Assembly (NCBI GenBank): GCA_024682455.1
Contig: JAIKZF010000005.1
Location: forward strand, 1-42,674
DNA: 42,674 nt
Direction of reading: 5' to 3'
Origin: Ruminiclostridium sp.
GTDB lineage: Bacteria; Bacillota; Clostridia; Oscillospirales; Ruminococcaceae
In this document: one piece after another, positions 32,968 through 37,264 of the stretch
How the letters are laid out: every line of letters starts with the position of its first letter
Numbering within the stretch: position 1 is the first letter of the stretch
Translations under genes and position numbers: made by a program
The notes under the pieces: generated by a model
Seen by the model: the letters and a program-made list of their open reading frames with translations, nothing else
Databases searched by the model: none
Told to the model about the DNA's origin: nothing

Positions 32968-33025
32968 TGTGCCTGAAAAACTGCCCGGTGAACGGGACGA
33001 TTTCAGCAGTACATAAACAAACATT

Positions 33026-33066
33026 AGCCCGAACGGTATAACCGTTCGGGCTGTACTTGTTTTTTA
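33026..33066. terminator. Strong convergent-gene terminator
   Basis: AGCCCGAACGGT (33026-33037) pairs perfectly with ACCGTTCGGGCT (33041-33052) around ATA. A T-rich run follows at 33056-33066. It lies between the small gene (plus) and the GGDEF/EAL gene (minus) and could serve either side, better the plus strand. Confidence 0.85.
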
Positions 33067-33145: not shown

Positions 33146-36100
33146 TCAGGGGATATAAACGCAGAATTCTTCCTCTGTGCTGTCACGTTCCGCAAAGTAT
33201 GTGTATTTATCGTTGTCGGAGTAGAAGGTCCTCTCATAGCGGACATCATTCGTCAGCTTCTCGCAATGCAGAGGCTGGTCGAAAATGTTCACAGCGCTGA
33301 TCTGATCCTTCTGTGCCGGAATGACATTTCCGCCTGTGATGACGGTGCGGCAGTCGGCGGAGCCGAACTGCTTGATGTTGCCGGACAGTATCTTGACGGT
33401 GACCGTTCCGCCGGAAATGCGTGTTACACCGCTGCCGTCGGAGCTTCCGTAGCCGGAAACTGTATCGCCCTCACCGTACGCGATCACCTTTCCTGCGGAG
33501 CAGGTGATATCGCCATATCCGTGAAGCGAGCCTATGCATACGGCTGTATCTCCGTGAACGACCGCCGAGGTATAACCACCTGTGATGTTCACCTCTGCCG
33601 TGCCTTTGTTCAGAACACCGAGAGACGCGCACAGTTCTCCGTCTGCCTGAAGCTCCAGCTTACCGCAGTTATTCACAACGGTATCGCCGTCTATCGAGCC
33701 GAGAGCCACAGCGGACTTGCCGGAGCAGTGAGAAACGATGCTGCCGGTCTCGCCGATCTCAATAACGCTCTTTCCTCTAACGCTGCCTATGCCAAGAGAC
33801 TCGACGCACTGCGAGTTGATCGTGGTGGTGCCGTTCAGGAACTTGAGCGCGGTATTCTCGCCGGGCGCACCGCCGCCGATACCGACGCCCTTGTCTATGA
33901 ACAGCTCGACCGTGACATTGCCGGTCTGCGCAAAGGTTATGTTTCCGTAAGTCCCGTCATAGCCGCTTCCGATACCTGCGCCTCCGTTGGTCTTGAGCGA
34001 GACCTTCAGGCTGCCGTCGCCCCTGAATTCAAGAGAGGAGTTCTCCGGTACCGATATGCCGTTTTTCAGGATAGTGTTCTTGCCCTCCAGCGTAAGCACG
34101 GTCCTGCTGTTCTTACCGAGTCTTACGGCGGGTTTTTCCGCAGACCGCAGGCATACGTCGCGGAAGGTGAGGCTGATATCCGTGTCGTCCTCGATGATTA
34201 TCGGCAGTTCGACCGCGGAATCCATTTTACCGATGATACGGACGTTGCCCTTGCAGATTATTATCGAGCCGTATTTCTGGAGAGCGAGCTCGTAGAGGTC
34301 GATGGTCGCGTCTCCGTTCACGATATAGTGCATAAGGTCGCTGCCGTATCTGGAAACGATGATATTCTCGTTTATTATCTCATTGCGTATATCAATGGGG
34401 AGCTCACCGATAGGATCGGGCGCGGGGCGTGCTGTGTAGAAGCCTTGTATCAGGTCGACGCCGAACTCTATGACCTTTTTCATTTCCTCGTAGGTCTCAA
34501 CGCCCTCGGCGAGCACTTTGATATTGTTTATCCGCGCGAATTCTATCGTGCTCTTTACGAACATCTGCTTGTTCTGATCGTTCTGGATATTGGAGATGAG
34601 GAAGCGGTCGATCTTGATGATATGCGGCGAATAGCGCAGCAGATTGACAATATTTGAATGTCCCGTTCCGTAATCGTCTACGGCGATCCGGTTCTGTGTA
34701 TCCGAGTCATCATCGTCGTCGGAAATGCTTCCCAGATAGCGTATCGAGTCAAGCTCGGCATCCGATACCGTACCCTGTTCGGTGATCTCAAAGACGAAAT
34801 TCCGCATATACTGACTGTACTTGGTCTTGAGCTCGACCAGATCCTCGTTTTTGAGGAAGTTCCCTGGTATGGTATTTATGAACACTTTAGCGCCCCTGAA
34901 CATTTCATTGTCCTTGGCGTAGCGCTCCATGACATTGAACAGGGTGGCGCGCTCGATGTTGTAGAGCATATTGTATTCTTTGGCGACATCGAGTATCTCC
35001 ATGGGGGACATCTTTATCCCGCCCGCTGAGCGCATAAGAGCCTCATAAGCGTAGATATCGCCGGTCTTTGCGTCAATGATAGGCTGGAAATAGTAGGTGA
35101 AGAGGTTTTTCTCAACGAGTATCATGAACTCGTTGTACATATCCTTTACGTTCTTTTCGGCAGCGGCGGGCTTATCCTCCTTGACGGCGGCGGTAAGGCC
35201 GTTTTTCACCTTGGTCATATACATCTCGGCATTCGCGAGCTTGATAAGGCTGCTCAACGAGCTGTTCCAGCCGCTGTTGGCAGTGGTGCAGCCGCAGTTG
35301 ACCTCTATCGCGTAGCCCTTTTCGTTGCTGGAGTTGTAGCCCTCTATGACTCCGTAGAACACCGCGACAGCGTTGTCGATGAGCATAGAGACCTCGTTCT
35401 CGTCGTCGACATAATTGATAACAACGAACTCATCGGTGCCGGAGCGCGCAATGAAGCCGTTATCCTTGTTCGCGAGGCTTAGAGCGTCCGCCACAAAGCG
35501 TATCGAGGTCTCGATCTCCTCTATGCCGAAGTTTTCATAGATGTATTTGTACTGCGGAATATGATAAACTGAGACAGTAACCGTCTTTTTGTGGTTCTCT
35601 TCCACGTCGCTGAATTCGGTGAACCACTTCGCGAGCCCCTTCAGGTTCGCAAGTCCGGAAAGCGGATCTATGAACATCGCGTTCTGCATACTGTTCTGTA
35701 TACGCTGCTTGTACAGTCTGTTTATCAGAGCACCGAACGCTATGTTCATTATTTTGGAGACGCGGAACACCTTGTGTGTGGTGTTCGGTATGTCATTGGT
35801 CTTGACCGCGTAGTATCCGCAGGTCTCGGCGTTCATATATATTGGGGTCAGAATATAAAGGGTGTCGTCATTGAGCCACGCTTCAAGATCGGGGACCATT
35901 TCAGAAACAGGGAAGCGCCCCTGTCTGCCGTTCTTGTAATCCTCCGCGCGCGAGGTCACGACTATGAGCTCGTTCATAGCCTGTTCGGTCTGCTTGTCGC
36001 CGGTTTTGCCGAGCGACGCCATTATAAAGTCCTCGTTGAGGCAAACGCCGGAGTTTGGAAGTATGTAGTTCCGCAGCACCGAACCGAGCATATTTAGATT

Positions 36101-37087
36101 TTCACAGTCAAGTATCTGATCCGCGAGCGAATAGATATGCTTTTCGTGCTGCTGGATCTCCTGCGTCATCTTATACAGGAAGCTCGCGCGTCTGCGGAAA
36201 TCAATAGCCATGCCGTTTACGCAGCCGCAGGACTCACCTATGTACGCCATATACGTCTCCGAGAAGGCTCCGGGCTGAACGGTCCCGTTGAGACTGCCGT
36301 TGATAAGCCTTATGGTCAGTTCCGCGAGATAGGGTATATCCTCCTTGCAGGTAGTAAGGCGGGGCATGAAGTATTCGGCGGAAACAAGTCCGTCAAAGCC
36401 CGTGACCTTAATGTCGGACGGCACGATGTATCCGTTTGAGCTCAGCTCCTCGCAGACTGCCATAGCCATATTGTCGTTCGCGCATAAAATGGTATCGGGC
36501 AGGGCACGGCCGCTGCGCAGATAATCCTGTACAGCCATTCTCGCGGGGATATCCCAGTATTCGCCGTACATGACGTTCTCTTCCGGCAGATCGAGGTCGT
36601 GTTTGGCAAGCGTATCTTTTACTATTTTCAGGCGCAGCTCTGTCTCGGGGTCATCGTTGCGTCTGCCGCCGATGAAAAGGAAGGATTTTGACCCATGGTC
36701 GTTTATCATGTGCTCGATGACCTGTTTGTAGGCTGACGAATAGTCCGGGTGTATACAGCAGCAGCCCTCATGGTCTCCGTGAACAAGTATCACGGGTACG
36801 CCGAACTTTCCGGCTTTTGCGATGATATCTTCTTTGAGCTGTTTGTCATATATGCTTTCGCAGAGTATGACAATGGCGTCGAGTATGTCATAGTTGATCG
36901 TATCGAATATCTTTTTCGAGCCCTGATCGTTCAGGTCTCCGAAGTAAAGATCGCGAAGGCTGTTGAATATGATGAGCTTATAGTCGTTGTCCAGCGCAAA
37001 TCTGTGCAGATTTGAGATATAATCGGTACCGAACTCATCCTGTATCTTGGAGAGACATACTCCTATGATTTTTCTGTTGTTGATCAA
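33146..37087 (-). CDS. LacI-type sensor / degenerate GGDEF / EAL / beta-solenoid protein
   Basis: A 1313-residue protein with no signal peptide or membrane segment. Residues 5-285: periplasmic-binding/LacI-type sugar-binding domain without a DNA-binding part (LCANDNMAMAVCEELSSNG, VPSDIKVTGFDGL). 290-465: linker, partly coiled. 470-630: GGDEF domain, degenerate: the signature reads SGTDEF (549-554) and the metal-binding DxD...FKxxND region reads HIPQYKYIYE (509-518). 655-890: EAL domain with all key motifs: EAL 682-684, Asn 738, EITE 767-770, DDYGTG 804-809, KID 825-827, AEGVE 860-864, QGF 881-883. 945-1260: short repeated strands (AGIGSG, GNITF, GVGIGGG) like a beta-helix of the Cthe_2159 kind. 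Likely a c-di-GMP phosphodiesterase controlled by a ligand. Start TTG 37087 after GGGTGAT. Single-gene unit. Confidence 0.85.
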   Translation of the reverse strand: MINNRKIIGVCLSKIQDEFGTDYISNLHRFALDNDYKLIIFNSLRDLYFGDLNDQGSKKIFDTINYDILDAIVILCESIYDKQLKEDIIAKAGKFGVPVILVHGDHEGCCCIHPDYSSAYKQVIEHMINDHGSKSFLFIGGRRNDDPETELRLKIVKDTLAKHDLDLPEENVMYGEYWDIPARMAVQDYLRSGRALPDTILCANDNMAMAVCEELSSNGYIVPSDIKVTGFDGLVSAEYFMPRLTTCKEDIPYLAELTIRLINGSLNGTVQPGAFSETYMAYIGESCGCVNGMAIDFRRRASFLYKMTQEIQQHEKHIYSLADQILDCENLNMLGSVLRNYILPNSGVCLNEDFIMASLGKTGDKQTEQAMNELIVVTSRAEDYKNGRQGRFPVSEMVPDLEAWLNDDTLYILTPIYMNAETCGYYAVKTNDIPNTTHKVFRVSKIMNIAFGALINRLYKQRIQNSMQNAMFIDPLSGLANLKGLAKWFTEFSDVEENHKKTVTVSVYHIPQYKYIYENFGIEEIETSIRFVADALSLANKDNGFIARSGTDEFVVINYVDDENEVSMLIDNAVAVFYGVIEGYNSSNEKGYAIEVNCGCTTANSGWNSSLSSLIKLANAEMYMTKVKNGLTAAVKEDKPAAAEKNVKDMYNEFMILVEKNLFTYYFQPIIDAKTGDIYAYEALMRSAGGIKMSPMEILDVAKEYNMLYNIERATLFNVMERYAKDNEMFRGAKVFINTIPGNFLKNEDLVELKTKYSQYMRNFVFEITEQGTVSDAELDSIRYLGSISDDDDDSDTQNRIAVDDYGTGHSNIVNLLRYSPHIIKIDRFLISNIQNDQNKQMFVKSTIEFARINNIKVLAEGVETYEEMKKVIEFGVDLIQGFYTARPAPDPIGELPIDIRNEIINENIIVSRYGSDLMHYIVNGDATIDLYELALQKYGSIIICKGNVRIIGKMDSAVELPIIIEDDTDISLTFRDVCLRSAEKPAVRLGKNSRTVLTLEGKNTILKNGISVPENSSLEFRGDGSLKVSLKTNGGAGIGSGYDGTYGNITFAQTGNVTVELFIDKGVGIGGGAPGENTALKFLNGTTTINSQCVESLGIGSVRGKSVIEIGETGSIVSHCSGKSAVALGSIDGDTVVNNCGKLELQADGELCASLGVLNKGTAEVNITGGYTSAVVHGDTAVCIGSLHGYGDITCSAGKVIAYGEGDTVSGYGSSDGSGVTRISGGTVTVKILSGNIKQFGSADCRTVITGGNVIPAQKDQISAVNIFDQPLHCEKLTNDVRYERTFYSDNDKYTYFAERDSTEEEFCVYIP

Positions 37088-37158: not shown

Positions 37159-37187
37159 ATTATAACATATTTTTTTCATATTGTCAA
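37159..37187 (-). promoter_or_regulatory. Promoter of the GGDEF/EAL gene
   Basis: On the minus strand TTGACA (complement of 37182-37187) and TATAAT (complement of 37159-37164), spacer 17 bp, a near-consensus promoter. The leader is about 65 bases. Confidence 0.82.
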
Positions 37188-37235
37188 TAATAATAATAGC
37201 TAAATTGCACAAAAATATAGCCGCTGAGTGTACAG

Positions 37236-37264
37236 TTGACAAAAGCTTGTATTTGTGGTATAAT
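37236..37264 (+). promoter_or_regulatory. Promoter of the zinc-ribbon membrane protein gene
   Basis: TTGACA (37236-37241) and TATAAT (37259-37264) with a 17-bp spacer. It is divergent from the GGDEF/EAL promoter, about 50 bp away. Confidence 0.85.

Follow-up and report, generated by a model that had tools for sequence, protein, structure and literature searches.

Why would a probable phosphodiesterase for cyclic di-GMP (c-di-GMP) that carries no signal peptide end in a beta-solenoid related to exported proteins? This question is raised by a gene in a stretch of 42,674 nucleotides (the window) from Ruminiclostridium sp., contig JAIKZF010000005.1 of GenBank assembly GCA_024682455.1. The gene, at positions 33146..37087 of the minus strand, is a single open reading frame (ORF) of 1313 amino acids with a TTG start and no interruption, as claimed by an earlier note made from the sequence. 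It encodes a LacI-type ligand-binding core, a degenerate GGDEF domain, an EAL domain, and a solenoid that is, judged by profile comparison, homologous to exported GIG-repeat beta-helices. The solenoid is most likely an exported-type module that now sits in the cytosol, with the direction of the move inferred. I give an even chance to the reading that the protein is a cytoplasmic c-di-GMP phosphodiesterase that is gated by a ligand and docked or assembled through its solenoid. The parts of the gene are as follows.

33146..37087, minus strand: complete gene, 1313 codons plus stop; an ORF whose orthologues align over the full length
36218..37087, minus strand: ligand-binding core of the LacI/periplasmic-binding-protein (PBP) type without a helix-turn-helix (HTH), residues 1-290 (PF13377, E 1.2e-17; PDB match 9nt3)
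35702..36217, minus strand: middle region, residues 291-462, the least conserved part, without Pfam match (mean conservation 0.435)
35168..35701, minus strand: degenerate GGDEF domain, residues 463-640, with HIPQYKYIYENFG and SGTDEF (PF00990, E 1.4e-11; alignment to 9p6j)
34418..35134, minus strand: EAL phosphodiesterase domain, residues 652-890, catalytic residues intact
34274..34417, minus strand: linker, residues 891-938, with a low-confidence hinge at about 910-919 (block of predicted local distance difference test score, pLDDT, 62)
33302..34273, minus strand: beta-solenoid, residues 939-1262, rung of about 28 residues (pLDDT 87-98 over 940-1239; periodicity; homology to exported GIG-repeat beta-helices)
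33149..33301, minus strand: C-terminal hairpin, residues 1263-1313, ...YxYxA...CVYIP (predicted strands; common to sequence groups A and B)

Is the C-terminal part really a solenoid? The structure of the EAL domain plus the C-terminal part was predicted with AlphaFold from 37 sequences. The C-terminal part is predicted to be all-beta with strands throughout, and the blocks over residues 940-1239 have pLDDT values of 87-98 (mean pLDDT 89.9). The predicted template modelling score is 0.65, so that the relative placement of EAL and solenoid is predicted only loosely, and residues 910-919 form a weaker block (62). The repeat period is 28-29 residues, with z-scores of 4.3 (lag 29) and 4.6 (lag 56) that are uncorrected for the 55 lags tried. 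The earlier note had described about 315 residues of Gly-rich strands and had proposed structure prediction of the full protein as a check, with a solenoid expected at residues 945-1260. A solenoid was indeed predicted there, and its extent is slightly longer, from about residue 939 to 1262, followed by the hairpin up to 1313. In Pfam, the C-terminal 419 residues matched nothing but GerPB (E 0.88, far below its cut-off), and a direct match to PF18889 was not obtained. When the EAL-solenoid model was used for a fold search of the PDB, the best 50 matches listed were EAL structures.

The kinship of the solenoid came from profile comparison. The solenoid profile aligned with six exported segments from four loci at an hhalign probability of 98.9% (E 1.2e-17, 180 columns), and it is because of this alignment that I regard the tail as homologous to exported beta-helices, as the earlier note had suspected. 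The element common to the solenoid and the exported GIG-repeat proteins is GxNxl...GIxVPxxSxLxIxGxGxL. By eye, a ...YAWLP end similar to the C-terminal hairpin is found in two exported relatives. The weaker matches of the solenoid profile sit in large proteins; among the proteins whose start is visible, L111, L112, L113, L114, L119, L213, and L218 look signal-bearing by eye, and L120 has an inner stretch resembling a membrane helix. Five exported relatives were scanned for domains, giving one Beta_helix_3 (5e-25), two Cthe_2159, and two without a match. Three of the five were matched by the solenoid profile. The Cthe_2159 proteins L113 and L119 were not among these matches, and their genomes gave weak matches of the profile (3.2e-8 and 1.6e-4). 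L119 lies beside what I take by eye to be VTC-domain and DUF4956-like ORFs, and L113 beside presumably MBOAT/AlgX-like ones. Searching the PDB with the exported segments yielded no match. In a viral library, the top match was a phage glycerophosphodiesterase (E 3e-4), and the other matches among the best 50 of 362 had E-values of at least 0.03. These viral matches, including pectate-lyase-like, beta-helix, and tail-spike proteins, were set aside as too weak to use. As a side observation, a 1206-amino-acid ORF at L115 (contig C62 of genome G004) begins like flagellin (Flagellin_N, 3.1e-35), and an ORF of the same length on that contig has weak solenoid-profile matches and five GIG motifs. L115 may encode a flagellin into which a beta-helix is inserted.

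Where is the solenoid of the window protein located? The exported GIG-repeat proteins (PF18889, Beta_helix_3 type) share homologous rungs with it, but they look exported and have little Cys in this part, whereas the window protein is fused to EAL and lacks a signal. Its N terminus is neither signal-like nor hydrophobic by eye, and its Kyte-Doolittle maximum is 1.22; therefore, no membrane helix is predicted. Cys makes up 3.09% of 9534 residues in the EAL-linked solenoids versus 0.17% of 1201 in the six exported segments (p 4e-13 by Fisher's test, for rows that are not independent), and at least three Cys residues are present in 30/30 EAL-linked solenoid rows and 40/40 group A rows. In membrane-anchored paralogues, a short two-helix hairpin is flanked by basic residues on either outer side, as judged by eye; in this orientation, EAL and solenoid would stay within the cell. 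The Cys richness, the hairpin flanks of the paralogues, and the cytosolic substrate of EAL together argue for a cytosolic location. Since the solenoid is homologous to exported helices yet signal-less and Cys-rich, it is most likely a module of exported type that has come to lie in the cytosol. The earlier note had likewise placed the protein in the cytoplasm without signal peptide or membrane helix, and the findings agree with it.

Does the protein act as an enzyme? The Pfam order is Peripla_BP_3 at residues 130-274 (E 1.2e-17), GGDEF at 472-627 (1.4e-11), and EAL at 658-888 (6.1e-43). PF00563 scores 147.3 bits against a cut-off of 31.3. The 12 metal and catalytic positions of EAL, all of whose motifs the earlier note had listed as present, are kept in 36/36 rows covering them and in 77/77 orthologues. 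Among 14 EAL positions viewed in the 77 orthologues, A683 is kept in 77/77, and position 828 has R in 70 orthologues and H in the other 7. Judged from these residues, the EAL domain probably cleaves c-di-GMP. LapD and FimX work as receptors, and the protein might by analogy be a receptor, with c-di-GMP bound by its EAL and the solenoid acting as the output toward a target. The solenoid indeed follows EAL, on the output side. However, the catalytic positions are not intact in LapD and FimX, while they are intact in 77/77 here, and I regard a pure receptor as very unlikely.

The GGDEF domain appears to have changed its role. In an ungapped alignment to the cyclase 9p6j, DID is replaced by HIP, IND by IYE, and GGEEF by GTDEF, and the Asp six residues beyond IND is replaced by Glu. 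Thus, other residues stand in place of the first metal Asp and of the Asn that recognises the base, while only the second Gly is gone from the signature, whose loss the earlier note somewhat overstated. The domain has neither the GG(D/E)EF signature nor the DxD metal motif of diguanylate cyclases. At the former active site it has a motif of its own, PxYxYIYENYG (residues 511-521, 35525-35557, minus strand), with P511 in 53, Y513 in 72, I516 in 72, E518 in 73, N519 in 64, and G521 in 77 of the 77 orthologues. Because this different motif is strong among the orthologues, the domain seems to be kept for a role other than cyclase activity. Is it a GTP-binding activator, as the earlier note suggested? 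Caulobacter CC3396 also combines a degenerate GGDEF with an intact EAL behind it, and PMC7288161 describes GTP binding at its GGDEF. In the window protein, however, the base Asn and the metal Asp are replaced, and a LacI core in front and a solenoid behind are added. GTP activation is unsupported because of these two replacements, and from sequence alone it was judged unlikely.

For the sensor, PF13377 scores 65 bits against a cut-off of 26.5, and the first 290 residues match LacI-family cores (PDB 9nt3, E 5.6e-13). Full-length LacI-family models are matched only from model position 56-64 onward, at residues 2-8, so that the HTH is missing, which is what the earlier note meant by a LacI-like domain without a DNA-binding part. 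Four residues align with what I take to be ligand-contact positions in LacI: R152 (kept in 74/77 orthologues), N204 (75/77), D232 (73/77), and Y177 (Y or F in 72/77). The ligand is probably a small solute, a sugar or a nucleoside. At the end of the core, SCGC (residues 286-289, 36221-36232, minus strand) has Cys287 in 77/77 and Cys289 in 76/77 orthologues; C109, C202, and C247 of the core are present in at least 90% of alignment A4. LacI-like Periplas_BP domains, the same sensor family, occur in c-di-GMP proteins, and the review PMC8846402 describes them as putative sensors, maybe sugar-binding, whose role is not validated. That review calls the wider PBP clan periplasmic, whereas the LacI-type domain of this protein is most likely cytosolic and has a solenoid added.

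Is the solenoid always found with EAL? Related loci were collected by scanning named genomes with profile A1, and the best 80 of 134 were kept; some duplicate records of genomes with G handles (L122 and L011, for example). The LacI-GGDEF-EAL-solenoid order is present in 39 of the 80 kept loci, 37 lack the solenoid, and 4 are partial. The same scan with the C-terminal protein alone gave no match. Among 60 relatives, 22 are matched by the C-terminal 419 residues, and all 22 belong to the genus of the window (22/36 genus genomes, its own included). Profile A3, built from 30 C-terminal domains including the last EAL residues and the linker, matched 15 of 391 genomes of the class at 1e-10, 13 of them strongly and in 4 genera, and 3 of 398 genomes of the phylum at 1e-20, its own included. 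In the class search, EAL lies directly before the solenoid in 14/14 strong loci, the window included, and four weaker loci in two genomes have no EAL before it. Over all fetched loci, 81/82 distinct strong matches (more than 200 profile columns, E below 1e-30) share an ORF with EAL, a count that leans to EAL because L121-L200 were found by GGDEF/EAL motifs; the remaining one, L051, is truncated by a contig end, and fragments such as L057 (192 amino acids, contig edge) fall below the threshold.

The input before the EAL-solenoid pair varies. It is LacI-GGDEF in the window and the 39 loci, LacI alone in L050, L220, L221, and L223, and a two-helix hairpin in L040-L045 and L058, with a weak GGDEF added in L222. 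L023 has a GGDEF and an N-terminal part without assignment, while L053 and L059 have a short part without Pfam match. Because of the 81/82 linkage, EAL and solenoid behave as one inherited unit with exchangeable inputs. Labels of the named relatives include Ruminiclostridium, Ruminococcus, Lachnospiraceae, and Acetatifactor, and isolate names point to the guts of ruminants, rabbits, and horses. Two other loci are noted here. L195 is a solenoid-less orthologue on a contig labelled Treponema sp. UBA4307, which is either an interphylum transfer or a binning error. L052 (about 1200 amino acids) has by eye a LacI core, a GGDEF whose signature is intact, another GGDEF-like part, and EAL, without the solenoid.

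How often was the solenoid gained or lost? EAL regions were obtained from all but 7 of 119 ORFs, and 68 of these 112 regions remained for the EAL tree once the set had been thinned. A 61-row branch (100/99) comprises the solenoid-bearing groups, the solenoid-less orthologues, and one other EAL, and the eight remaining EALs fall together on one side of a branch with 79/93. The full-length alignment held 76 of the 80 loci and the window, the 4 partial loci being omitted. In a second tree of 64 of 79 rows (thinned at 75% identity), the solenoid label needs 4-5 changes among the orthologues, and the starred branches force 2-3. From these trees, I read the history as an early fusion followed by input exchange and repeated loss of the solenoid, the alternative being repeated gain. 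As for the alignments, L019 (internal stop) was not aligned, L026 and L047 were dropped from A2 and A3 by the motif rule, L018 is in A1 and absent from A2, L011 was omitted from A3 as incomplete, and five group B rows of A3 lack their last residues.

Such losses bear on the possibility that the solenoid is a mere rigid spacer or dimer brace, partnerless and easily lost. The 37 solenoid-less loci, the several changes on the tree, and the mostly structural conservation would fit this. But the coupling of solenoid and EAL persists across several input types and four genera of the class sample, and a mere spacer would hardly have remained about 320 residues long. I consider this explanation unlikely. 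In 40 group A sequences, the mean conservation is 0.52 for the solenoid, 0.54 for the sensor, 0.74 for EAL, and 0.435 for the middle region. Other residues conserved in the solenoid region are E1206 (100%), Y1297 (97%), N1254 (95%), N1034 (92%), D1065 (90%), and Y1204 (87%), all of which could serve binding of whatever kind.

Does the solenoid bind a glycan? It may be a sensor of an intracellular polymer or glycan, such as a cytosolic polysaccharide or an imported oligosaccharide, that tunes EAL, so that the protein would read two carbohydrate signals. The Cthe_2159 family (PF14262; structures 4peu and 4phb) has a weak profile similarity to the solenoid, and PMC6712302 reports that the Cthe_2159 beta-helix binds cellulose and pectin. 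PF14262 matches 2 of 30 solenoids (best E 7.2e-6), and the best PDB profile match is 4peu (E 0.018). A LacI-type core is within the same protein, four solenoid columns are aromatic in at least half of 30 rows (column 1047 is F/Y/H in 26/30), and total aromatics match those of the exported relatives (4.20 versus 4.25%). On the other hand, the window's own protein has neither a PF14262 match nor a signal peptide, and Trp is 0.09% in the solenoids versus 0.83% in the exported segments. Thus, I find the glycan sensor rather doubtful. I lean to docking or assembly because this protein has no Pfam carbohydrate-binding match and the solenoid is dispensable in many orthologues.

In the docking reading, a small solute would close the LacI-type core, and this closure would be relayed via the middle region and the GGDEF domain, which presumably no longer makes c-di-GMP and may serve as a coupling or dimer element. 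The relayed change would set the rate of EAL, which is predicted from its intact residues to cleave c-di-GMP. An exported-type GIG-repeat beta-helix would have become fused to EAL in the cytosol and then been inherited with it while inputs were exchanged. The solenoid would most likely act as a rigid docking or assembly surface that brings the phosphodiesterase to a partner or into an oligomer, where the enzyme would lower c-di-GMP locally. It would be accessory to catalysis and has probably been lost in several orthologue lines. A bolder version is possible but somewhat doubtful: the beta-helix of exported proteins turned cytosolic organiser of second-messenger enzymes, with the EAL-solenoid unit self-assembling or docking on an intracellular polymer or scaffold and creating local zones of low c-di-GMP, while different sensors are plugged into this unit. 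Bactofilins are cytosolic beta-helix scaffolds, and they resemble the window protein as a conceptual scaffold model only. Membership in the bactofilin family (PF04519) was discarded; one of 30 relatives matched at E 0.69 and the window protein did not match.

Several points weigh against the account of a cytosolic, EAL-bound docking module. Whole exported ORFs hold 0.90% Cys, above the 0.17% of the six segments. Profile A3 contains the last EAL residues and the linker, so that its searches lean to EAL-linked copies. The long-branch EAL L038 lies inside the 61-row branch and weakens a single origin of the EAL-solenoid pair. The solenoid positions conserved above 85% in the group A sequences are mostly Gly or core-type. 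Lastly, no neighbour-gene family occurs in more than 14 of 81 loci (the largest clusters are 14, 13, and 10, with gene distance unweighted).

Two further features flank the gene.

37159..37187, minus strand: sigma-70-type promoter-like site, TTGACA-17-TATAAT, 12/12 (consensus match only)
33025-33053, no strand assigned: terminator-like hairpin, bidirectional, 3′ of the gene (consensus match only)

GGGTGAT is found by eye shortly upstream of the TTG start, and the gene looks monocistronic. A 524-amino-acid ORF on the plus strand is antisense to the gene. The region 37159-37264, between the gene and the neighbouring zinc-ribbon gene, holds two divergent perfect promoter-like sites. An Rfam scan of the window gave no match besides a lysine riboswitch away from the gene (RF00168, 25259-25440, minus strand, 98.5 bits, E 4.1e-25).

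What might the output be? The window's own genome, which is 86% complete, has 23 GGDEF matches. PilZ was not found in it; given that completeness and the presence of PilZ in 30/36 genus genomes, no conclusion is drawn from this absence. No c-di-GMP-I riboswitch was matched in this genome, and the control matched nowhere either, so this proves nothing. Since PilZ is present in those 30 genomes and flagellin in 22/37 relatives, motility is a plausible output.

Is such a protein already known? A description of EAL with a beta-helix or solenoid was not found in the titles and abstract openings returned by searches of open-access literature. Thus, the earlier note's remark that no system with this order has been described holds for the literature searched; in genomes, however, this order is common, as the 39 of 80 loci indicate. 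The parts are known; their recurring pairing in the cytosol, EAL joined to a beta-helix of exported type, seems not to have been described. Since orthologues occur naturally both with and without the solenoid, its role can be tested directly. If the reading is true, the fold of an exported protein would have been reused inside the cell as a c-di-GMP signalling module, and gut Clostridia would offer a testable case of local c-di-GMP control.

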